Assembly: GCA_003166955.1 (NCBI GenBank)
Contig: PMUI01000113.1
Location: 1-64,000 of the forward strand
From: Acidobacterium sp.
GTDB lineage: Bacteria > Acidobacteriota > Terriglobia > Terriglobales > Acidobacteriaceae
Length of the DNA: 64,000 bases
Direction: 5' to 3'
Shown: piece after piece, positions 55,586 through 59,158 of the stretch
Layout of the letters: each line of letters opens with the position of its first letter
Numbering within the stretch: position 1 is the stretch's first letter
Position numbers and translations under genes: made by a program
Notes under the pieces: model-generated
The model's input: the letters and a program-made list of their open reading frames with translations, nothing else
Database searches by the model: none
What the model was told of the DNA's origin: nothing

Positions 55586-55921
55586 ATGCGCTCAGTTGTT
55601 CTGATTCGCGGTTTGCTCAGGGGCATGGGCCGCGAAGTGCCCTGCGAGATGCTGGCGATCCGAGAGTCGCATTCGCAAACCGGCCAGGCCGTCTACTCCC
55701 GTTGCAGCGTCATCGACGCGCCGATGGACCTGCCCGACGGTGTCTACACGGTCGCTTTCAACGGCTACACCGTTTCTGCCAGGAAAGAGGCTGGTCTTTG
55801 GATGCCGGAGGGCACCACAACTCCAGTGCTTTCGAGCGAGAAACCTGCAGGGGACACGCCTTCGTTCCGCGTCGAAGATGCAATCGAGATTCTGCCGATC
55901 CTGAAAGGCAAAGTAGCCTGA
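55586..55921 (+). CDS. Hypothetical protein (111 aa)
   Basis: Open frame with coding-like composition between yggS and the c-di-GMP gene. It starts at ATG 55586 with a weak ribosome binding site (GGCTCGAAG). The middle reads as a compact beta domain (MDLPDGVYTVAFNGYTVSARKEAGLWMPEG) and has two Cys. No membrane helix or signal peptide. I do not recognise it; it may be a small acidobacteria-specific protein. Confidence 0.55.
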   Translation: MRSVVLIRGLLRGMGREVPCEMLAIRESHSQTGQAVYSRCSVIDAPMDLPDGVYTVAFNGYTVSARKEAGLWMPEGTTTPVLSSEKPAGDTPSFRVEDAIEILPILKGKVA

Positions 55922-55978: not shown

Positions 55979-58900
55979 TTATGCGCGCCATGAGGCTGGA
56001 GGATGCTTAAGCGACCGCGTCCTGCAACAGCACATCATCTGCGTGAGCAGTTCGTCGCGGAGGCAATGGAGTTCATGCACCTGAACCTTGACGTCGGCGC
56101 CTGCGGTTGCAGGTTCCCAGGCCGATGCGATATCCCCGCGCGCGTGAATCTGCTGATGGAGGCGGTCGATGTCTTGGAAAGCGGCCGCAGCTCCAAGGGG
56201 GCTCGCTCGTTCGCTGTCGAGCCACCGGCCTAAGCGGCAGCGGTGCGGATCGAGCTGAGGGGGCGACCGGCGCCCGCCGAGCAGAAAGGATTCCATCGCA
56301 GCGATCCACGCGCGGTGTGCCACGGCAGCGTGCAACAGCGTCCGCTTCCGGGGCGTCACAGATGCCACCGTTGCCCAGGCCGGATCGGGGTTCCATGCGG
56401 CGAACCATGCCGGCAAATCATCTCCGGGCATGGGGTAAGCGATTCCGTTTCCCTGCCCATACACGCATCCCAGCTGCAGCAGGAGCCGGCCATGGTCGAC
56501 GGTCTCCACGCCTTCGGCAATCGCCATGCGATCGAAGGCGATGGCCAGCCCCAGCACGCCTTCCAGAATGCTGAGATCTTCGGGATCGTCGAGCACGTCG
56601 CGGACGAAGCTGCGATCGATCTTGAGGGTGTTGACGGGGAGGCGCTTGAAGTAGGTCAGCGACGAATATCCGGTGCCGAAGTCATCCAGTGCGATGGATA
56701 CCCCGATCTCACGGCACGCGGCCAGCACATGGGAGACCTCCGCGATATCGTGCAGCGCGCTGGTCTCCAGCACCTCCAGCTCCAGCCGGGAGGGCGGAAT
56801 GCCGGGATGGGCTGCGAGCAGGATGCGCAGGCGGTCGATGAAATCCGGCTGCTGCAGATGATGGGCGGCGATGTTGACGCTGACAGGAATTCTGAGTCCA
56901 CCGGCTTCCCAGTTTTCCAGCTGCGACAGCGCATGTTCGATGACCCACTCGCCGATGTGGTCGATGAGCGGATGGTTCTCAATGATGGGAAGAAACAGGG
57001 CCGGCAGCAGGCGCCCGCGGGTGGGATGGTTCCAGCGAATCAGAGCCTCCGCGCTCATCAGCCTGCCGGTGCTCATGTTCACCCGCGGCTGGTAATACAG
57101 AACAAATTCACTCGCTGCCAGAGCGCGGCGGATTTGTTCCAGGTCTTCGTGGAAGGTGCGGATGTTGATGTCGTGGGCGGGATCGAAGATCTGGTAGCGA
57201 TTCTTGCCGGCCAGCTTGGACTGATACATGGCCTGTCCGGCCTGGCGCAGCAGTTGGTCGGCATCGATCTCCTCGGTCTGCGGATAGAAGACCACGCCGA
57301 TGCTTGCGGATGCCTGAACGCTGGCTTCGCCGCACACTTCCTGCTGCGAAGCACAGGCGAGAAGGTTGTCTAGAATCGGCCCGGCGGCATCCACATCCGG
57401 CAAATCAAGCAAGACCGCGACAAACTCGTCGCCACCGATACGAGCGAGAGTGTCGGACTCGCCGAGAACCTTCTTCATGCGCCCGGCCACTCCCATCAGG
57501 AGCTGGTCTCCGGCATCCTGCCCATAGTTTTCGTTGACTCCGCGAAAGCCGTCGAGGTCGATGCAGGCCACGGCCAGGGTTTGTCCGTGACGATGCGTCT
57601 GCCCCATGGCCTGCTGCAGGCGATCGGTCAGCAGCACCCGATTGGGCAGATTGGTGAGGGCATCGAAATGCGCCATGTGCTCCAGGCGGCGCTCCTGCTC
57701 TTTGGTCTCCGTCACGTCGGAAAAGAGCGCCACGTAATGCTGCACTCGGGAGGCGCGATCGTAGACGGCGTTGATGGTCACGGTCTCGGGATAGATCCTT
57801 CCATCCCTGGCCTTGTTCCACATTTCGCCCGACCACTGCCCGTTCTCGGTCAGAGCCCGCCACATGTCGCGGTAAAACTCTTCGCTCTGCCGGCCCGATT
57901 TCAGGATGCGAGGATTGCGCCCCAGCACTTCCGCCCGGCTGTAGCCGGTGATGCGCGTGAACATCTCGTTCACGTCGAGGATCGCGCCCTGCGGATCGCA
58001 GATGAGGATGCCTTCGCGCGCGTTGGTGAAGACACTGGCCAATAGCTGCAGCTGCTCCTTGTCCTTTTTCTGCTGGGTAATGTCCTCGCTGAAGATGACA
58101 ATGCCCCCGATGCCTCCTTCCGCGGTCCGCCAGGGATGGATCTCCCAGCGCAGCCACTGCATCGAGAAATCCTCGCGAACGAAGCGGTCCTCCTCGCAAT
58201 AGAGGTCTTCGCCGGCCAGCGCACGGCGATGCAGGTTTTTCCATCGCTCCGGGATTTCCGGAAAGAGTTCGTAGTGAGAGCGGCCGACGACGTAGATCGA
58301 ACCGAAGCCATAGTCCTGACGCCAGCGGCGGCTGACCGCGAGGTACCGCATCTCGCCATCGAACATGGCCAGCGCCGCCGGGGCATGTTCGATAAAGAGC
58401 TGGAAGACCTCGCTGCTTTCAGCCAGCTTCAGTTTCGCCTCGATCGGCCCCGTAATGTCGGGGCAAATCCCGAACACTCCGATGATCTCCCCCTCGTCGG
58501 TTGCCACCGGATATTTGCGATTATCGATCCAGCGATGGGAGCCGTCGACCATTTCCACGCGCTGGATCCCGTTCGTGCCCCGTCCTCCCGCGAGAACCTC
58601 CTGGTCCCTCCGGTACAAAGCGTCGGCCACGGGCTCCGGGCACAGGTCATAAACCGTCCTGCCCACAAAATCGATCTTCCTGTTTGGGTCGCCCATCAGG
58701 TCGGCGAGTTTCTGCGTCGCCCCGAGAAACACGTGACCCCGGCTCTTGAGATACATGTAGTCGTCGGTATGACCAACCAGGCTGCGGAAGCTCTTCGCGA
58801 TGGCCTTCAGATCTTTGCTGGTCTGCGCCTCCGCGGCGCCCAGAGTGAGATCGAGGATCGCTCCGCCGCCGTCCGGGGTCTGCCTTTCGAACTCCGCGCG

Positions 58901-59158
58901 CACACAACGAATTCGACCGTCGGCGTGGCGGAGCCGCAGGCTGGCACTGCCATGCCCATCGGCTGATGCTGGAGAAAGAATCCTCTCGATCAGCTCGCTA
59001 TCGTCCGCATGAACGCGATCGCGCAGAGAGATACCGGAAGATAGCCAATCCTGTGCAGGATACCCCGTCAACGCTTCGATGGACTCACAGACCGACAGAA
59101 CCCGGAGAGGATCGGTCAAATCCAGTCGCATCCTTGCATTGATGCAGTCCGTCAGCAT
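55979..59158 (-). CDS. Multi-PAS GGDEF-EAL protein with C-terminal CZB zinc-binding domain
   Basis: A 1059-aa cytoplasmic c-di-GMP enzyme. About four PAS-type domains fill the first ~490 residues (e.g. GITGYSRAEVLGRNPRILKSG-like sequence in the last). GGDEF follows (about 490-660) with IGGDEF intact and no RxxD inhibitory site. EAL (about 690-925) keeps SAEALIRW, DDFGTGYSSL, LKIDRSF and AEGVET, so it may hydrolyse c-di-GMP. The last ~120 residues match the CZB domain with His948, Cys974, His1001 and His1005, in spacing close to that of the zinc-sensing DgcZ of E. coli. It is a likely integrator of PAS signals and zinc. Confidence 0.9.
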   Translation of the reverse strand: MLTDCINARMRLDLTDPLRVLSVCESIEALTGYPAQDWLSSGISLRDRVHADDSELIERILSPASADGHGSASLRLRHADGRIRCVRAEFERQTPDGGGAILDLTLGAAEAQTSKDLKAIAKSFRSLVGHTDDYMYLKSRGHVFLGATQKLADLMGDPNRKIDFVGRTVYDLCPEPVADALYRRDQEVLAGGRGTNGIQRVEMVDGSHRWIDNRKYPVATDEGEIIGVFGICPDITGPIEAKLKLAESSEVFQLFIEHAPAALAMFDGEMRYLAVSRRWRQDYGFGSIYVVGRSHYELFPEIPERWKNLHRRALAGEDLYCEEDRFVREDFSMQWLRWEIHPWRTAEGGIGGIVIFSEDITQQKKDKEQLQLLASVFTNAREGILICDPQGAILDVNEMFTRITGYSRAEVLGRNPRILKSGRQSEEFYRDMWRALTENGQWSGEMWNKARDGRIYPETVTINAVYDRASRVQHYVALFSDVTETKEQERRLEHMAHFDALTNLPNRVLLTDRLQQAMGQTHRHGQTLAVACIDLDGFRGVNENYGQDAGDQLLMGVAGRMKKVLGESDTLARIGGDEFVAVLLDLPDVDAAGPILDNLLACASQQEVCGEASVQASASIGVVFYPQTEEIDADQLLRQAGQAMYQSKLAGKNRYQIFDPAHDINIRTFHEDLEQIRRALAASEFVLYYQPRVNMSTGRLMSAEALIRWNHPTRGRLLPALFLPIIENHPLIDHIGEWVIEHALSQLENWEAGGLRIPVSVNIAAHHLQQPDFIDRLRILLAAHPGIPPSRLELEVLETSALHDIAEVSHVLAACREIGVSIALDDFGTGYSSLTYFKRLPVNTLKIDRSFVRDVLDDPEDLSILEGVLGLAIAFDRMAIAEGVETVDHGRLLLQLGCVYGQGNGIAYPMPGDDLPAWFAAWNPDPAWATVASVTPRKRTLLHAAVAHRAWIAAMESFLLGGRRSPPQLDPHRCRLGRWLDSERASPLGAAAAFQDIDRLHQQIHARGDIASAWEPATAGADVKVQVHELHCLRDELLTQMMCCCRTRSLKHPPASWRA

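Follow-up and report, generated by a model that had tools for sequence, protein, structure and literature searches.

The subject of this report is a gene on the minus strand of a 64,000-nucleotide stretch of Acidobacterium sp. DNA (contig PMUI01000113.1), the whole of which is referred to here as the window. The gene (55979-59158) is an open frame of 1059 amino acids (aa) from its ATG, and it carries GGDEF, EAL and CZB domains in that order within one frame, behind a series of PAS domains. This protein of a soil bacterium can probably both make and break cyclic di-guanosine monophosphate (c-di-GMP). We lean towards the view that it is a bifunctional-capable c-di-GMP enzyme in which CZB would act chiefly on EAL, so that the breakdown of c-di-GMP would be controlled by zinc or by oxidants. 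From the domain layout, EAL is the likeliest main output; control of the cyclase comes second and is less certain.

Domain layout and predicted zinc site

Pfam analysis of the whole protein placed a CZB domain (PF13682) at residues 948-1008 (E 1.9e-12, 47.8 bits against a cut-off of 29.4), which confirms the GGDEF-EAL protein with C-terminal CZB proposed by the initial annotation; the profile match was also the check that this annotation had named, and it came out positive. The score was 50.8 bits for the C-terminal 158 aa and 52.5 bits in a scan of the 5.4-Mb genome, where this is the sole CZB match at E <= 0.001. GGDEF and EAL also exceed their own cut-offs and PAS-family matches span approximately residues 22-484, so that the intact EAL and about four PAS domains of the initial annotation are borne out by Pfam as well as by the 43-row alignment described below (Table 1). 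Fifteen further stop-free residues lie upstream of the ATG, and the start of the frame is uncertain. The GGDEF motif is intact at aa 575-579, in the GG[DE]EF form taken to indicate an active cyclase. The primary inhibitory site RxxD, at the position where we presume it to be, reads GESD (aa 566-569), with Gly in place of Arg. In EAL, E704, N762, E795, E798, D825, D826, K846, E882, E885 and Q902 are all present, and these we take to be the active-site positions known from studied phosphodiesterases such as RocR. The nearest solved GGDEF-EAL structure by sequence is 4rnh, among entries named 'Motility regulator' (E 9.1e-90, residues 491-919), which leaves CZB uncovered. Among 25 of the 46 NCBIfam families listed, no named equivalog scored above its cut-off, the best being DibA with 525.5 against 980. 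Hydrophobicity averages at most 1.57 over 19 residues; since this gives no clear membrane helix, the protein is probably cytosolic.

Table 1. Features of the GGDEF-EAL-CZB gene in window coordinates
Feature	Position	Strand	Basis
PAS(x4)-GGDEF-EAL-CZB gene, 1059 aa	55979..59158	-	open frame and Pfam domains
N-terminal sensory part, about four PAS, aa ~10-490	57689..59131	-	overlapping Pfam profiles: PAS_3 in 4 stretches, PAS_4 in 3, PAS in 3
GGDEF domain, aa 496-654	57197..57673	-	Pfam E 2.9e-39 and alignment
EAL domain, aa 674-908	56435..57139	-	Pfam E 2.3e-66; range reproduced in a second run
Tryptophan-rich EAL-CZB linker, aa 909-947; W918, W922, W928	56318..56434	-	kept in 43 aligned rows, fixed spacing
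CZB core, aa 948-1008; H948, C974, H1001, H1005; CRLGRW; W951	56135..56317	-	Pfam; profile aligns to DgcZ CZB 3T9O
Last CZB helix, part in frame with relatives, aa 1020-1041	56036..56101	-	AlphaFold2 helix and alignment with relatives
C-terminal tail out of frame with relatives, aa 1042-1059	55982..56035	-	comparison with relatives

The predicted zinc set of three His and one Cys is present as His948, Cys974, His1001 and His1005, exactly where the initial annotation had placed it, and the motif Cys-x-[L/F]-G-x-W is found as CRLGRW. Four ligands define three spacings, which are 26, 27 and 4 in the window protein. In DgcZ of Escherichia coli, whose two further ligands we take to be His79 and His83, the corresponding values would be 30, 27 and 4 when counted from His22 and Cys52; of the three spacings that had been said to match, the last two would therefore be equal and the first not. 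The positions of His22 and Cys52 are published (PMC8262984; papers are cited by PMC number for the excerpts available). According to the same source, a Trp three residues past the first His is characteristic of CZB domains of the cyclase subgroup, and such a Trp (here W951) occurs in 42 of the 43 aligned rows, including the window.

A profile built from six close CZB parts has the CZB of DgcZ (3t9o, E 0.01) as its best match by sequence in the PDB, and the alignment pairs the first His-x-x-Trp, the Cys-x-Phe-Gly-Arg-Trp stretch and the last two His. The other four PDB rows (E 0.12-3.6) are named as unrelated eukaryotic proteins, and a PDB sequence search with the last 114 residues alone gave no match. 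An AlphaFold2 (AF2) model of CZB, with a predicted local distance difference test score (pLDDT) of 79.8, was superposed on the four-helix bundle of DgcZ (3t9o_B) with Z 9.4, a root-mean-square deviation of 3.4 and 15% identity over 112 aligned residues, at rank 23 and tied with unrelated helical bundles. In a Foldseek search with this model no hit reached E <= 0.001, and the 50 rows listed did not include 3t9o. By analogy with DgcZ, TlpD and McpA, the domain may hold a zinc ion through three His and one Cys, and dimer formation and oxidant sensing would likewise be expected of it.

The last 18 residues of the window protein (MCCCRTRSLKHPPASWRA, 55982-56035) are out of frame with the relatives. 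The nearest of these end in LLLQDAVS or alike, and another frame of the window reads DDVLLQDAVA followed by a stop; the shift is possibly real, possibly a single-base assembly error. The possibility of a second metal site at a Cys triplet near the C-terminus was set aside: the triplet is put down to the shifted frame and is probably no zinc motif. It could be argued from the shifted tail that the window copy is decaying and its CZB no longer working, the more so as the same-genus copy in genome G400 has an in-frame TAG and five genomes of the genus lack the gene at this site. We regard this as very improbable, given that neither the four ligands nor the CZB core is damaged, that the frame changes only past the zinc site, at the extreme end, and that an assembly error is also a conceivable cause.

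Conservation and the probable coupling of CZB to EAL

The alignment comprises 43 GGDEF-EAL-CZB proteins, the window protein included. Loci L076 and L077 (same contigs as L051 and L052), L061 (truncated where its contig ends), L050 (interrupted by a TAG) and L138 and L140 (other domain orders) were left out before counting. The rows were picked for their CZB match, so that conservation of the zinc ligands is partly built in; for residues of EAL and GGDEF this bias is smaller.

The ten EAL active-site positions are invariant in all rows, and E793, a further Glu outside the ten, is Glu in 35 of the 43. The distance from the last EAL Gln (Q902) to the first zinc His (H948) is 46 residues in 22 rows, among them the window, and 48 in the other 21, with no other value. 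Within the linker, W918 is kept in 42/43, an aromatic residue at 922 in 43/43 and W928 in 40/43. No tryptophan-rich linker of this kind was seen behind 11 other EAL domains of the window genome or three from the genomes of relatives, where tails were judged by eye and two weak EAL matches of the window genome (L181, L182) were not recovered. CZB therefore looks rigidly coupled to EAL. If CZB acts on EAL, a fixed distance of 46 or 48 residues and an invariant EAL active site are to be expected. The linker, too, points first to EAL, as none of this kind was seen in the window genome among the other EAL proteins that were read.

A competing explanation, which we consider rather unlikely, is that CZB mainly governs the cyclase as in DgcZ, EAL being a passive spacer or a constant counter-activity, so that zinc would inhibit synthesis and zinc loss would raise c-di-GMP. 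In DgcZ the zinc-bound form is inhibited, GGDEF being the target, and oxidation of the Cys sets zinc occupancy (PMC8262984). Consistent with this idea, GG[DE]EF is intact in 41 of the 43 rows, the exceptions being L045 (SGDEF) and L054 (GGDKF); the Arg of RxxD is present in 38 rows and missing in the window protein and four others. However, CZB adjoins EAL and not GGDEF, at the two distances only. L054, with its altered GGDEF, has kept both EAL and the zinc set, and L140 keeps CZB behind EAL though its GGDEF has moved beyond a REC domain; both observations favour an action of CZB on EAL. Where the initial annotation had coupled zinc to synthesis and breakdown alike, the layout thus points first to EAL, and the part concerning the cyclase is less certain.

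With regard to the zinc site, the set is complete in 42 of the 43 rows. The first ligand spacing varies from 25 to 30, the Cys-His spacing is 27 in 39 rows and the His-His spacing is 4 in all. The single deviating row, L045 (genome G266), has Gln for the first His and Ser for the Cys in addition to its SGDEF, which makes it a natural case of zinc-site loss with the CZB domain kept. Such a protein would suit a structural role of zinc, in which CZB would serve for constitutive dimerisation, holding EAL in its dimeric state without sensing anything at physiological zinc. EAL domains work as dimers. CZB, too, has been described as a homodimer (PMC8262984, PMC8846402), and the zinc affinity of DgcZ is reported to be subfemtomolar, so that the site may be permanently full (PMC8262984). 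Nonetheless, the CZB domains studied so far (DgcZ, TlpD, McpA) have been described as sensors of zinc or oxidants (PMC8262984, PMC13370339), and a purely structural role seems to us fairly improbable.

Under the preferred reading, control of EAL by CZB, the protein would be a soluble multi-sensor enzyme, potentially making and breaking c-di-GMP, whose four PAS domains would receive other signals. The C-terminal CZB would bind zinc through its three His and one Cys, with an occupancy that either free zinc or the oxidation of Cys974 would determine, a point on which the literature is divided. Occupancy would order or loosen the helix-bundle dimer of CZB, and the short fixed linker would pass this change on to the geometry of the EAL dimer and hence to the rate of c-di-GMP breakdown. 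Any effect on GGDEF would reach it via EAL.

Several points weigh against control of EAL by CZB. The conservation of GGDEF in 41 of the 43 rows makes cyclase control possible too, and in L138 CZB stands ahead of PAS-GGDEF-EAL, so that it is not always found behind EAL. A model of EAL-CZB from six sequences reached a pLDDT of 55.4 and a predicted template modelling score (pTM) of 0.40, which leaves the linker geometry unsupported. In the AF2 model of 124 aa, residues 96-123 form a helix that corresponds to aa 1020-1047 of the window protein, and the shifted tail may alter this last CZB helix. A 2026 preprint on McpA disputes direct Cys oxidation in CZB and favours a response to zinc availability (PMC13370339). 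Finally, a search of the literature, in the excerpts available, found no biochemical study (zinc, activity or dimer) of any GGDEF-EAL-CZB protein; for Acidobacteria and CZB together it listed a single paper, which to judge from its title concerns a myxobacterial chemosensory system.

A broader and more tentative proposal is that the GGDEF-EAL-CZB proteins form a separate family of c-di-GMP phosphodiesterases, spread by lateral transfer and gated by zinc or oxidants, the breakdown-side counterpart of DgcZ, in which a Trp linker of fixed length would lock CZB to EAL, and which would have entered Acidobacteriota by one transfer. If CZB gates EAL, c-di-GMP would fall as well as rise in response to zinc status or oxidants, and DgcZ would have its counterpart; if it does not, the window protein simply adds another example to an architecture already in print. 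The 46 and 48 spacing classes, the zinc-site loss of L045 and the GGDEF change of L054 offer natural comparisons in this respect.

Distribution, genomic site and history

Close relatives of the gene, whole or partial, are carried by six of the 11 other genomes of the genus (G408, G400, G403, G402, G407 and G399). In the first five (in G407 on two contigs) the site is the same as in the window, between a HAD phosphatase gene and a 111-aa gene plus YggS; the relative in G399 (L054) is located elsewhere. The same-site copy in G400 (L050) has an in-frame TAG that cuts off its CZB part. The surroundings of the HAD gene were read in six genomes (G372, G401, G404, G405, G406 and G399). In all of these except G401, whose other flank was not found, the CZB gene is missing at the site and the HAD frame adjoins the 111-aa gene or YggS, with approximately 40-260 bases between open frames; in G404 the contig ends within YggS. 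Because the site without the CZB gene occurs in five genomes, the gene is accessory in its genus.

The neighbours in the window are presumably Ku, a XerC/D-like protein, YggU, YggS, the HAD phosphatase, a BtuF-like protein and MutT, as judged from their sequences. No zinc theme was recognised among these genes, whose names come from no library search. The 111-aa gene (55586-55921) is convergent and has no Pfam match at E 0.001; several genomes of the genus retain it next to YggS.

Beyond the genus, CZB matches at E <= 0.001 were found in 31 of 399 genomes of the window's class and in 25 of 297 of its phylum. Among those loci of these lists that were read and had long enough frames, GGDEF-EAL-CZB occurred only in the window genus and in the same-family genus g2 (L041-L045). 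The same order is found in Tepidiphilus (L078-L080), whose class has a CZB match in 116 of 369 genomes and whose order in 65 of 200. From the matches listed for this class and order, 69 loci with frames of at least 600 aa were taken besides L078 (genome G689), and 30 of these 69 are GGDEF-EAL-CZB; one is CZB-PAS-GGDEF-EAL (L138), one is EAL-CZB-REC-GGDEF (L140), and 37 gave CZB without EAL or nothing. The two rare orders (L140, 3245-5491; L138, 3998-6166) both come from genomes of the Tepidiphilus order. At E 0.01 the 103-aa CZB part matched nothing among phage records.

In a quick tree of the 43 proteins, midpoint-rooted and without an outgroup, the window's family accounts for ten rows, which cluster as a single branch (SH-aLRT 99). 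This branch falls within a group of 22 rows, the remaining 12 being proteobacterial, from the Tepidiphilus class or order. With this rooting the tree fits one transfer, putatively from Proteobacteria.

Tepidiphilus margaritifer (G689) carries three CZB chemoreceptors (L183, L184 and L185) in addition to its GGDEF-EAL-CZB protein L078. It is thus an exception to the published tendency of species to have either CZB chemoreceptors or CZB cyclases, not both.

Comparison with known systems

The architecture is already known, and the window protein is a further, ordinary example of it. Whereas the initial annotation implied novelty, both PAS-GGDEF-EAL-CZB and other EAL-containing CZB proteins are in print (PMC6416229, PMC8262984). 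Acidithiobacillus AFE_1725 (PAS-GGDEF-EAL-CZB) and AFE_1712 (Protoglobin-GGDEF-EAL-CZB) have the same order, with CZB last behind EAL (PMC6416229); they differ in having one PAS or a globin in front and in belonging to another phylum, the likeness being one of domain names. A table in the same source has 62 CZB domains under GGDEF-EAL proteins. EAL-containing diguanylate cyclases and EAL-CZB proteins are published subgroups of CZB (PMC8262984), which resemble the window protein in the fusion of CZB to EAL or to GGDEF-EAL. Other papers, in the excerpts available, cover CZB just generally, as that of DgcZ, or as a prediction (PMC11395469, PMC11404848, PMC4331095).

A plasmid-borne likeness is WP_244073144.1 of Aeromonas caviae, which is also GGDEF-EAL-CZB by Pfam and aligns with 98% of the EAL-CZB query at 55% identity. 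Unlike the window protein, it has HAMP and one PAS in front and is encoded on a plasmid, and it is annotated merely as 'EAL domain-containing protein'. Its gene (L189, 5970-9182) lies on the conjugative plasmid pKAM497_1, with recombination genes on either side and TniB/TniQ and a recombinase nearby.

The CZB chemoreceptors TlpD and McpA share the C-terminal position of the domain, but their output is that of methyl-accepting chemotaxis protein (MCP) signalling and they are not c-di-GMP enzymes. DgcZ (YdeH), the sole c-di-GMP enzyme named with a tested CZB signal in the part of a review available (PMC8846402), shares with the window protein the CZB of three His and one Cys and the link to c-di-GMP. 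In contrast, its CZB is N-terminal on a lone GGDEF, with neither EAL nor PAS, a difference that the initial annotation had described rightly; in the window protein, CZB stands behind EAL.
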